Shown here in pieces: positions 26,609 to 37,336 of a DNA stretch of 64,000 nucleotides (positions are counted from its first letter, which is position 1; each line of letters opens with the position of its first letter). The DNA comes from Gammaproteobacteria bacterium LSUCC0096 (GTDB lineage Bacteria; Pseudomonadota; Gammaproteobacteria; Pseudomonadales; Litorivicinaceae), in contig VIEA01000001.1 of the NCBI GenBank assembly GCA_008087055.1, positions 12,514 to 76,513 on the forward strand, written 5' to 3'. Under the pieces are notes generated by a model. The model was not told where the DNA came from. It made no database searches and saw nothing but the letters and a program-made list of their open reading frames with translations. The translations under genes and the position numbers were made by a program.

Positions 26609-26611
26609 AAA

Positions 26612-26781
26612 AGACCCAAGTTGCCGCTGTCAGTTTAGCCCTTGAACCCAATGGTTCAAGGCGGGAAACGCAAACACACATTAGGCTTTCCGTGAACGGA
26701 CATGCACACCGTGTGCTTTGTGCTTCCCTGGAATAAGATTATCGGCTCAGGGACATCACCGACTGGCGTACAACTCAGGAG
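26612..26781 (-). ncRNA. ssrS: 6S RNA (SsrS)
   Basis: 6S RNA mimics an open promoter and sequesters sigma-70 RNA polymerase. On the minus strand, the segment CCCTGAGCCGATA near the 5' end and CCTTGAACC-ATTG-GGTTCAAGG near the 3' end match the enterobacterial RNA. The ends pair in a ten-base-pair closing stem (CCTGAGTTGT at 26779-26770 with GCAACTTGGG at 26624-26615). A TATACT -10 at 26792-26787 sets the start near 26780. It lies between zapA and ygfA exactly as in E. coli. Ends are approximate to a few bases. Confidence 0.93.
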
Positions 26782-26792
26782 TTGTGAGTATA

Positions 26793-27089
26793 TCAGCCTG
26801 TCTCTGTCTCAGACAGACGTTCGAGTGTCGTGCCAATGCGATCCGCGAGACGCTTAAGCTCATCATCATGTCCTGTGGTCTCGCCTGTAAGGTGTTCGTG
26901 AGCGATATTGAGCGCGGCCATGACAGCTAGGCGCTCGAGCGCGCTATTTCCTGTCTTGTCCTGAATCTCGCGCATTCGGTTGTCGACAAATTCAGCGGCT
27001 GCTTCGAGCTCATGCTCTTGGCCTGCTGGGCAGGCGACTGGGAATTCTCGTCCTAGAATTTGGACGCGGACAGTCGCGATTTCGGTCAT
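26793..27089 (-). CDS. zapA: Cell division protein ZapA
   Basis: ZapA bundles FtsZ filaments at the division site. The 98-residue protein has the family N-terminus VRVQILGREFPVACPAGQEHELEAAA and a C-terminal region predicted as a coiled coil. It overlaps the upstream ZapB-like gene by four bases (ATGA), and its 3' end abuts the 6S RNA promoter, so the -10 box of ssrS touches the zapA stop codon. Confidence 0.94.
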   Translation of the reverse strand: MTEIATVRVQILGREFPVACPAGQEHELEAAAEFVDNRMREIQDKTGNSALERLAVMAALNIAHEHLTGETTGHDDELKRLADRIGTTLERLSETETG

Positions 27090-35103: not shown

Positions 35104-35112
35104 GTTCTACAT

Positions 35113-35145
35113 TTGTCTGGACAAAACTGGGACAACATTGCCACA
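35113..35145 (+). promoter_or_regulatory. Candidate operator: ACA triplets at exact 11-bp spacing before the MerR/B12 gene
   Basis: Three successive 11-base units end in ACA: TTGTCTGGACA, AAACTGGGACA and ACATTGCCACA. The first also forms the inverted repeat TTTGTC-TG-GACAAA. MerR-family cobalamin photoregulators of the CarH type bind operators built of 11-bp direct repeats, so this may be an autoregulatory site. It ends nine bases before the chosen ATG and also covers the DnaJ-gene upstream region. The repeats match each other only partly. Confidence 0.4.
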
Positions 35146-35154
35146 CTAACAGGT

Positions 35155-36162
35155 ATGGCTTCACTAGAAACGATTTCAAGTATCGACACGGCACCTCGCC
35201 ACCCGATCCGATTGGTTGCTAATCGAACGGGTTTAACAGTCGATTTGATTCGCGCTTGGGAGAAACGTTACCACGTTGTTGATCCTGCGCGTAGTGATAC
35301 CAAGCGTAGACTGTATAGCGACTATGACATTGAGCGTTTGAGACTTATTCGGATTGCAAAACAAAACGGTCGCCGTTTGGTTGATGTTGCCCCTTTAACA
35401 CTCGAAGCGCTTCGAGATGTGGTCTCTGAAGATAGTCGTTACGATCAAGCACAAGATAATCAGGCCGAAGTCTATCGGCCCAGTTGGACCAGCCCGCTTG
35501 AGTCAACTGATACCCAGGATGACGTTGATGCCATGTTGTTTGCGGTACAAACAATGGATCAACATCGGTTTGACCAATTGTTGCAGGAAGGATTGGTTAA
35601 GCAATCGCTGCCAGCGTATCTTGAAACAGTTATTGGACCACTGCTGCGTGAAATTGGTGAATCCACCAGACTGGGTAAATTGCGGATCGCCCACGAGCAT
35701 ATGGCGACTGCGCACTTAAGAACGTTTATCGGCGCACTTCGATTCCGAGAGACTTATACCGGCAGCGAGCCGAAAATCGTTATTACCACACCAACAGGAC
35801 AACTCCACGAACTCGGTGCTTTGATGGTTGCAGCGTTAGTGTCTGTTGATGGATGGCTACCTGTATATTTAGGTCCGAATACACCAGCTGATGAAATTGT
35901 TGCCTGTGCTCTGCAGTCCGGAGCGCGAGCTGTCAGTTTGTCGTTGACTTATCCGGCTGATGATCCACGCATACCGACGGAACTGACGCGTTTGAGATCG
36001 CAGTTGGATGGGAAAATCCCATTGTTCGTTGGAGGGTCGGCAGCAGCGCATCATCATGAACTCATCGACCGGCTTGGCCTTGAATCGCCGCTGACTTTGG
36101 ATGCGTTACGCGAATCGTTGAGAGCAGTCCGTGATGGCCGATATCAGGGGCGAATCAAATGA
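35155..36162 (+). CDS. MerR-family regulator with cobalamin-binding domain (CarH/LitR-like)
   Basis: The 335-residue protein (start ATG 35155) has an N-terminal MerR winged helix (IRLVANRTGLTVDLIRAWEKRYHVV... YSDYDIERLRLI), a helical cap domain and a C-terminal Rossmann B12-binding domain. GQLHELGALM carries the lower-axial histidine (about residue 218), and YLGPNTPADEI follows as in CarH. In the cap, the CarH photosensor pattern W-x9-EH reads T-x9-EH (GESTRLGKLRIAHEH), so the adenosyl-capping Trp is Thr. DNA binding and B12 binding seem intact; light sensing is doubtful. A TTG at 35113 could give a longer N-terminus. It overlaps the next gene by ATGA. Confidence 0.88.
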   Translation: MASLETISSIDTAPRHPIRLVANRTGLTVDLIRAWEKRYHVVDPARSDTKRRLYSDYDIERLRLIRIAKQNGRRLVDVAPLTLEALRDVVSEDSRYDQAQDNQAEVYRPSWTSPLESTDTQDDVDAMLFAVQTMDQHRFDQLLQEGLVKQSLPAYLETVIGPLLREIGESTRLGKLRIAHEHMATAHLRTFIGALRFRETYTGSEPKIVITTPTGQLHELGALMVAALVSVDGWLPVYLGPNTPADEIVACALQSGARAVSLSLTYPADDPRIPTELTRLRSQLDGKIPLFVGGSAAAHHHELIDRLGLESPLTLDALRESLRAVRDGRYQGRIK

Positions 36163-36479
36163 CGCTAACTGATCTCAAAGTATTGATCGCGAAAGGGCAG
36201 TCCCCGACTCTTGAGATCCATGCATTTGAGGGAATCATTTATCTCGTCAAAATCATCACGGACGTTGGCGAGACGATGTTAAAAAAAACCGATGGCGATA
36301 ACCAAGTATTCAAGTCATCAACACAGGCGGGTATTGCGCTCGCAGACGTCGGTGGAACTGAAGCGACCATTGTTCATCAATGTGCATATGACGAAGTCAT
36401 TGGTCACGAAAAATGCAAGGCAGAAGATCCTGCATTGCGTACCCCGATGGATCTTCGCTTACTCGCAGGACTTGGCTAG
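36159..36479 (+). CDS. DUF6482-like small protein
   Basis: This 106-residue soluble protein is translated in overlap (ATGA) with the MerR/B12 regulator gene. It has a short helix-plus-strand start (MTLTDLKVLIAKGQSPTLEIHAFEGIIYLVKI) and a central segment with FKSSTQAGIALADVG, features I associate with the DUF6482 family of gammaproteobacteria. No catalytic motif, signal peptide or membrane segment is visible. Two cysteines occur in the C-terminal half. The tight coupling suggests a partner of the regulator, but function is unknown. Confidence 0.65.
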   Translation: MTLTDLKVLIAKGQSPTLEIHAFEGIIYLVKIITDVGETMLKKTDGDNQVFKSSTQAGIALADVGGTEATIVHQCAYDEVIGHEKCKAEDPALRTPMDLRLLAGLG

Positions 36480-37336
36480 CTCGCGAGCTGGTTTCTTCGT
36501 TCGCAAAGCTCCGCATAATCTGGGGTGTTGTCACCTGTTAAAATTCCATGGCGAATCGCGAAATCAATGATCACGAGATTGCAGTTGTATTTAAATACAT
36601 CAGTGGTCTCGATCAGTGATAGTACGTCATCAATCGGCAATCTTTCGAACGACTCGACCTCACCGTCCTGACAAACTGGAACGAAGCTGTCGGGAAGCTC
36701 CAAATCATAACAATACAAAATGTCGCGTTTTAATCCGCGCCCATCGGTGTGACGATAGCTGATCGTCCCCGTCGCAACCGACTGGCTCGCCTGTGTCTCA
36801 GAAATACCGGCTTCTTCGAAGCACTCTTTGAGTAAGTTTTCGAATAGCCCAAGGCCAGCTGGCTGGCCACCGCCAACCATATTGTCGAGTTTTCCTGGAA
36901 AAGTGGGTTTTTGTTCTGACCGTTTCGCTACCCACAATTCAATGCCTTTGTGTGTTCTGACATAGCCGTTGAGATGCACGCCAAACGTCAGGCAACCGAG
37001 TGGCGCAGTCAATGTTCGCTCCATCACGAAACGAGTTGGGTCGGTGACAGACGCTTTTACGGGAAAAGGCTCGCCCACCCAGCTCCACAGTAATCCTTCC
37101 TCGTAAGTGTCTTTTGCAAATCGAGCGAAGAGTTGATTGAGCTTCCCCTCAGATAAGCTTGGAATCACAAGCCCCTGTTCTGATTCTTGCCATAAACCGA
37201 AACTCAACCCACGATCTCTGAAACTGTCTTGCACATAACCAAGTAATGCATCGTCTTGAAACCAGGGTGTCCATGATTGAAGGTCGGCATTATGCGCGCG
37301 GTCGAAATGGTCAAGAAAACTCAAGAGCGGCTCCAA
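36476..37336 (-). CDS. NUDIX hydrolase with N-terminal DUF4743 domain
   Basis: The 286-residue protein combines an N-terminal DUF4743-like region (residues 1-110) with a NUDIX domain of the type seen in plant and yeast thiamine-pyrophosphokinase-like Nudix enzymes (Nudt20/24, YJR142W). The NUDIX box GGGQPAGLGLFENLLKECFEEAGI keeps the metal-binding EExG core (ECFEEAGI) but has Leu where the first Glu of the consensus normally stands and Lys for Arg. Relatives act on oxidised thiamine diphosphates or other nucleoside phosphates; the substrate here is not predictable. It overlaps genes at both ends. Confidence 0.85.
   Translation of the reverse strand: MEPLLSFLDHFDRAHNADLQSWTPWFQDDALLGYVQDSFRDRGLSFGLWQESEQGLVIPSLSEGKLNQLFARFAKDTYEEGLLWSWVGEPFPVKASVTDPTRFVMERTLTAPLGCLTFGVHLNGYVRTHKGIELWVAKRSEQKPTFPGKLDNMVGGGQPAGLGLFENLLKECFEEAGISETQASQSVATGTISYRHTDGRGLKRDILYCYDLELPDSFVPVCQDGEVESFERLPIDDVLSLIETTDVFKYNCNLVIIDFAIRHGILTGDNTPDYAELCERRNQLAS

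Follow-up and report, generated by a model that had tools for sequence, protein, structure and literature searches.

Introduction

CarH of Thermus thermophilus, a class I LitR protein, is composed of a MerR domain, a four-helix bundle, and a B12-binding Rossmann domain. CarH proteins are defined by the cap motif Wx9EH together with a classic B12 motif (PMC8156234), and the cap Trp is regarded as one of their defining features. This Trp packs on the adenosyl group of the cofactor and favors assembly in the dark (PMC8221060, PMC10442372). MeCbl binds to CarH with little domain assembly (PMC8221060), and the protein remains monomeric with OHCbl or MeCbl (PMC10442372). The operators published for CarH consist of 11-bp repeats in tandem, of the form nnnnTnnACAn. 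Thermus CarH binds three of them, and CarH proteins also recognize operators in which one or two full repeats are accompanied by degenerate ones (PMC9304148).

Other described relatives are CarA of Myxococcus xanthus, CtMerR of Chloracidobacterium (PDB 8JBS), and the class II LitR proteins PplR and PmlR2 of Pseudomonas. CarA has the MerR/B12 build and retains the EH pair and the B12 motif, while its cap Trp is gone together with four flanking residues (PMC9304148), and it works without B12 (PMC9304148, PMC8156234). CtMerR has the Trp and is light-responsive (PMC11796333). The class II LitR proteins keep only the four-helix bundle and are believed to no longer sense light directly through B12 (PMC9758184). 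No account of a CarH relative with Thr in the cap, or of the regulator of the OM252 group, was found in the literature searched, which was partly accessible and mostly without subscription papers.

Gene and protein architecture

The regulator has the domain set of CarH. The window, meaning the whole stretch of 64,000 nucleotides that was analyzed, comes from Gammaproteobacteria bacterium LSUCC0096, and the features discussed are collected in Table 1. The regulator gene begins with ATG and encodes 335 amino acids; a TTG in the same frame at 35113 falls inside the conserved upstream element. All Pfam domains score above the cut-off: an N-terminal MerR DNA-binding domain (MerR_1, PF13411, residues 18-77, 4.7e-13), the four-helix bundle (B12-binding_2, PF02607, 126-195), and the Rossmann domain (B12-binding, PF02310, 207-303). 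The presence of both B12 domains distinguishes the protein from class II LitR.

Table 1. Positions of the regulator gene and associated features in the window
Feature	Position	Strand	Basis
Candidate operator, TTGTC-TG-GACAA dyad with ACA three times, 11 bp apart	35112..35147	+	Upstream sequence comparison
MerR/cobalamin-binding transcriptional regulator, T-x9-EH cap, CarH-like, Trp-less	35155..36162	+	ORF, Pfam, CarH alignment
Codon of Thr171 (equivalent of CarH Trp131), ACC	35665..35667	+	CarH alignment
DUF6482 gene, start overlaps regulator end by 4 bases	36159..36479	+	
Terminator-like hairpin closing the two-gene unit	36474..36493	+	Pattern match only

By sequence the nearest solved structures are Thermus CarH/LitR (E 4.5e-24 and 8.8e-24). 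A ligand-free AlphaFold2 model built from an 18-row family alignment has a pLDDT of 77.9 and fits the CarH cobalamin domains over 190-198 residues at 2.2-2.8 A by VIA. The VIA Z scores of this model are 21.7 and 21.3 for photocobilins, about 20-21 for CarH cobalamin domains, and 20.8 for CtMerR, and these predicted matches are ties. The NCBIfam equivalog model for CarH (NF052513) gives 110.2 bits, below its cut-off of 400. As far as can be computed, the regulator would work like CarH. Judged by its sequence, it falls outside the published definition of CarH, as it has neither Wx9EH nor the strict form of the classic motif.

The cap position

Thr occupies the position of the cap Trp. In a HMMER alignment with Thermus CarH, the regulator segment GESTRLGKLRIAHEH falls on GEAWHRGEIGVAEEH, pairing T171 with W131, R172 with H132, E181/H182 with E141/H142, and H218 with H177. 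In the model, T171 is predicted to end a long helix (152-172), with the EH pair in the next one (178-194). The pattern is Tx9EH in all 22 family homologues with a readable cap, including that of the window; a 23rd (L025) ends before the cap and is outside this count. Filling of the site by another Trp was ruled out, as the three Trp residues of the protein (35, 111, and 234) all lie outside the cap, and W234 is common to the Trp-bearing sisters. The preliminary description had reported T-x9-EH in place of W-x9-EH, and the alignment bears this out; no characterized light-sensing group in which Thr is standard was found in the literature searched, as far as it was accessible. Its phrase "light-sensing Trp" is loose, since the chromophore is adenosylcobalamin.

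Family distribution and history of the Trp loss

Thr in the cap is a family-wide feature. Named relatives of the regulator, at 69-98%, are Litoricola/Litorivicinus, HIMB30, and gammaproteobacterial records, all belonging to the OM252 group; all 18 of these loci have Thr, and their genomes overlap those of the 22 homologues. A first survey gave a match in 24 of 57 genomes, consisting of the 22 family members with a readable cap, the truncated one, and one member of another family with Trp. Two genomes of the same genus that lack a match are 68% and 82% complete. In wider searches, 32 of 293 genomes of the order had a match at E 1e-12; at E 1e-35 the figures were 48 of 369 for the class and 10 of 397 for the phylum. 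The cap residue was read from fetched loci only.

The tree suggests that the Trp was lost within one clade. Among 60 aligned rows the cap residue is Trp in 31, Thr in 17, Cys in 11, and Val in one. In a tree built without the Trp column, the Thr rows form one group (SH-aLRT 98) within a clade of 39 rows. All 21 rows outside this clade carry Trp, so the loss is derived, and with Thr in every one of the 22 family homologues these sequence data rule out a chance substitution. The Cys group has a support of 65, and the tree requires three changes of the cap Trp (to Thr, Cys, and Val). A single clade of Thr and Cys rows is not rejected (p-AU 0.533), so both may stem from one loss. Rechecking of 15 homologues outside the tree found W-x9-EH in 11 and no such motif in four, and Trp is therefore not universal outside the family. 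A homologue on a Gemmatirosa plasmid (L167, 5001-5936) has Val as its cap residue and Glu in place of the lower His, and from its sequence it probably does not bind B12.

Residues T171, R196, and P236 occur in every Thr row and in none of the 31 Trp rows, which fits a changed cap. It is conceivable, though very improbable, that the space of the Trp takes a second small ligand beside cobalamin, or that the regulator senses the methyl/aquo redox state of cobalamin.

The clade forms a natural series: Trp with a full site beside photolyase genes, a full B12 site capped by Thr or Cys instead, and Cys without the cobalt-binding His. These natural variants could be used to separate what the cap contributes to adenosyl choice, assembly, and light response. 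Signature searches that demand GxxW would miss the Thr and Cys group.

The cobalamin-binding site

Most of the published B12 motif, D/ExHx2G-x41-SxT/V-x22-27-GG, is present in the regulator. The preliminary description had called the motif intact, which is correct for His218, Gly221, Ser263, Thr265, Gly293-Gly294, and the published spacings; the acid is replaced by Gln216, so the strict pattern does not match. The lower His, EH, and GxxxP are shared with Thermus CarH. The differences besides the cap Trp are His132 to Arg, Glu175 to Gln, and loss of the salt-bridge pair R176/D201, which corresponds to L217/N242. Gln at the acid position also occurs in 11 of the 31 Trp-bearing rows, and the salt-bridge Arg is missing in the five Trp sisters compared; the Gln216 and salt-bridge changes may thus be earlier than the Trp loss. 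CarH Gly160 aligns with Thr or Val, in a loop where the alignment is uncertain. Because of Gln216, L217/N242, and the Thr or Val near Gly160, assembly may differ from that of CarH.

Conservation suggests that the site is still used in the Thr family. All 12 B12-motif columns, which were chosen by the analyst from published motifs, are invariant in the 17 Thr rows, compared with two of 12 in the 11 Cys rows. Over the whole domain 75 of 206 columns are invariant in the Thr rows (hypergeometric P 3e-6 for 12 of 12, relatedness ignored), and domain identity to the window protein drops to 50%. The dN/dS of the regulator is 0.015-0.035 in four of five pairs, the fifth being incomputable; since dS is saturated in some pairs, only purifying selection is claimed.

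CarA of Myxococcus is the closest precedent for the regulator, and it raises the alternative of a cobalamin-independent repressor whose B12 site is kept without a regulatory role and which is switched by a partner, possibly DUF6482. The CarA precedent shows that the motif and the EH pair can persist in a B12-independent protein without the Trp, the Cys neighbors show a scaffold that can do without the lower His, and the overlapping partner gene is conserved. The regulator, however, keeps the x9 spacing with no deletion where CarA has lost the flanking residues, and 12 invariant motif columns are unexpected for an idle site at 50% domain identity, even though CarA keeps the motif. We regard this alternative as distinctly unlikely.

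We prefer a cobalamin-dependent reading because the B12 motif is under strong constraint. Our best explanation, offered tentatively and with less than even confidence, is that the regulator is a cobalamin-dependent autoregulator of the merR-DUF6482 unit with an altered adenosyl cap and a relaxed choice of upper ligand. We infer that it binds cobalamin base-off with His218 on the cobalt and acts as a DNA-binding repressor. Replacement of the capping Trp by Thr would remove the contact that lets CarH read the adenosyl group and that favors its dark assembly, and by analogy with CarH and CarA the Thr protein would lose the adenosyl-specific lock. It would then answer mainly to cobalamin occupancy, and any light response would be weaker or differently wired than in CarH. 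The Glu of the EH pair touches the adenosyl group in CarH, and with this Glu/His pair kept (E181-H182) the regulator may still bind the adenosyl ligand. By analogy, the pair suggests that the ligand, and perhaps photoswitching, persist.

In the Cys group the lower His is gone from nine of 11 rows (Cys-cap sisters L067-L075). In three of five Cys-type stretches (L112, L115, and L118) a divergent gene of the fatty-acid-desaturase type adjoins the regulator, as checked with Pfam in L118 only. A FabA-type gene is also nearby in L112 (by eye) and L118 (by Pfam).

Cobalamin in the cell

The genome content indicates that the cell uses cobalamin. OM252 has been described as a B12 auxotroph, with btuB in one genome (PMC8269220). 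The only other B12-type match to the regulator query in the window's genome is MetH, which scores 1377 bits with NCBIfam (cut-off 1011). The genome has a PduO-type adenosyltransferase, and no CobA-type enzyme was found in it. The PduO type is present in 13 of 13 family genomes tried (in two pieces in G020), and lack of AdoCbl was ruled out for the family as a cause of the Trp loss. In the Cys group, both enzyme types are absent from five of five genomes of 1.0-1.1 Mb, in which the lower His is absent too (L071-L075). The lower His is also missing in G346, G482, G663, and G477, four further genomes of the Cys group, yet these have the adenosyltransferase, so absence of the enzyme does not explain the whole group. 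An Rfam scan found no cobalamin riboswitch in the window. Its one match was a 6S RNA (RF00013, 111.8 bits) at 26609-26784 on the minus strand, beside a short ORF at 26793-27089.

The partner gene and the upstream repeats

Among the 22 family genomes whose regulator is full-length, 21 have a DUF6482 gene adjoining it; L019 is the exception, and the gene is also absent in L041. The hairpin that may close the two-gene unit belongs to a pattern with five occurrences in the region, where shuffled sequence gave 1.7 on average. DUF6482 is present in 70 of 145 genomes of the order, and no MerR/B12 gene was found in its flanks in the 30 loci fetched from the 70 matching genomes. The model of the DUF6482 protein has a pLDDT of 85.9, and its top VIA Z of 5.8 is uninformative. 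No paper on DUF6482 was found in the literature searched.

The sequence upstream of the regulator ATG, TTTGTCTGGACAAAACTGGGACAACATTGCCACACT, contains a candidate operator that probably controls the regulator gene itself. Its ACA triplets are at 35121, 35132, and 35143, and the full TnnACA is found in the first of the three repeats only. Of 20 upstream regions from the genus, 18 contain ACA-n8-ACA-n8-ACA at the exact 11-bp spacing, and the two exceptions (L009 and L021) have one changed repeat each. In L020 the upstream sequence differs and the left dyad half is missing, while the repeats are kept. L022 and L023, from the second genus of the family, seem to have 11-bp repeats on the opposite strand and are excluded from the 18 of 20. 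Single-base shuffles of the 51-nt region gave the triple in 5 of 20000 cases, and it occurs once in the whole window with both strands searched. Its sharper form, GGACA-GGACA-ACA, has a single mismatch-free copy in the genome. The Trp-bearing sisters L062-L064 have TTGTC-GGACA dyads upstream of their regulators. Thermus CarH likewise has an element with an 11-bp period upstream of its own gene, and by our preferred explanation the regulator would bind the tandem repeats and autoregulate the unit that it forms with DUF6482. No sigma-70-like promoter was called at the candidate operator.

No second target in the genome is claimed, as the scan counts are near those of the controls. The dyad pattern gave nine places against eight in the control, and the two-repeat pattern with two mismatches gave 59 per strand against 56 and 54. 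The triple was found at the regulator's own promoter without mismatch and at two places with one mismatch, against one in the control. Five places match the two-repeat pattern with one mismatch. L129 is within an ORF, L130 and L131 are neighbors upstream of an integrase-like ORF, L132 is intergenic, and the fifth is L133; the ORF names were assigned by eye. The L133 element, GGACA-n6-GGACAA at 1501-1517 (G000:C1:1408006-1408022), is about 35 nt upstream of a csrA-like ORF; with scan counts at background, it could be a second regulator site or the GGA sites of CsrA itself.

Photolyase neighborhood and light

Gene order suggests that the regulator has been separated from a light-related cluster. 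In the nearest Trp-bearing group (family code f28), seven genomes have a regulator match, and homologues of photolyase, FAD amine oxidase, DUF1365, and CMAS are found in five of five long stretches. A photolyase homologue also flanks other Trp-type loci, including L055, L082, L084, L085, L087, and L090. The same four-gene cluster is found in the window's genome (C1:834.5-839.2 kb, L127) with no MerR/B12 gene beside it; it shares a contig with the regulator, at a distance of about 790 kb. A search for photolyase homologues in flanks of up to 6 kb around the Thr-type loci found none. Because photolyase is absent beside the Thr-type genes, the regulator appears to be uncoupled from the light cluster in the OM252/Litoricola family. 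The cluster was rejected as a trans target: the 650 nt before the photolyase gene lack the triple and have a lone GGACA at -96 and TTGTC-n4-GACAA at -419. A TTGTC/GACAA dyad found by pattern falls within the photolyase ORF.

Light absorption by cobalamin needs no Trp, and light sensitivity of the regulator is therefore possible. In this alternative the protein would still be an adenosylcobalamin photoreceptor. Thr would open the cap slightly, with the adenosyl group retained by the EH pair, and its release by light would still switch DNA binding, perhaps via the Glu-water-cobalt route of CtMerR. The regulator retains the GxxH, EH, and GxxxP elements of the published light signature, and Arg at the H132 position is shared with photoactive CtMerR (PMC11796333) and with the Trp-bearing sisters. 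The photolyase cluster of the nearest Trp-bearing group, the adenosyltransferase, and the planktonic life of the hosts also agree with it. However, the GxxW part of the signature is missing, and with it the adenosyl contact that stabilizes the dark, assembling form of CarH (PMC8221060, PMC10442372). The photolyase-free flanks of the Thr-type genes and the absence of the triple at the photolyase gene also weigh against it, and we consider a retained photoreceptor somewhat unlikely.

Sensing of cobalamin independently of light, which the preliminary description put forward as a possibility, is allowed by these data and has a partial precedent in CarA. A stronger form is that in these marine plankton, which are reported to be B12 auxotrophs, a CarH-type photoreceptor became a transcription factor that senses cobalamin status regardless of light. 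Loss of the Trp would then have removed the dependence on the adenosyl group and light, and cobalamin occupancy alone would set binding to the 11-bp repeats. We consider this conversion unlikely. B12 dependence is not new, as CarH needs B12 in the dark, but B12 dependence without light control would be new if true. We know of no B12-dependent, light-independent protein of the CarH type, and a B12-dependent CarH-type regulator without light control was not found in the literature searched.

A second group without the cap Trp (L065/L066 and L110/L111) has Cys at this position and keeps the B12 site, including EH and the lower His. In L111 a photolyase homologue is located about 5 kb from the Cys-type regulator.
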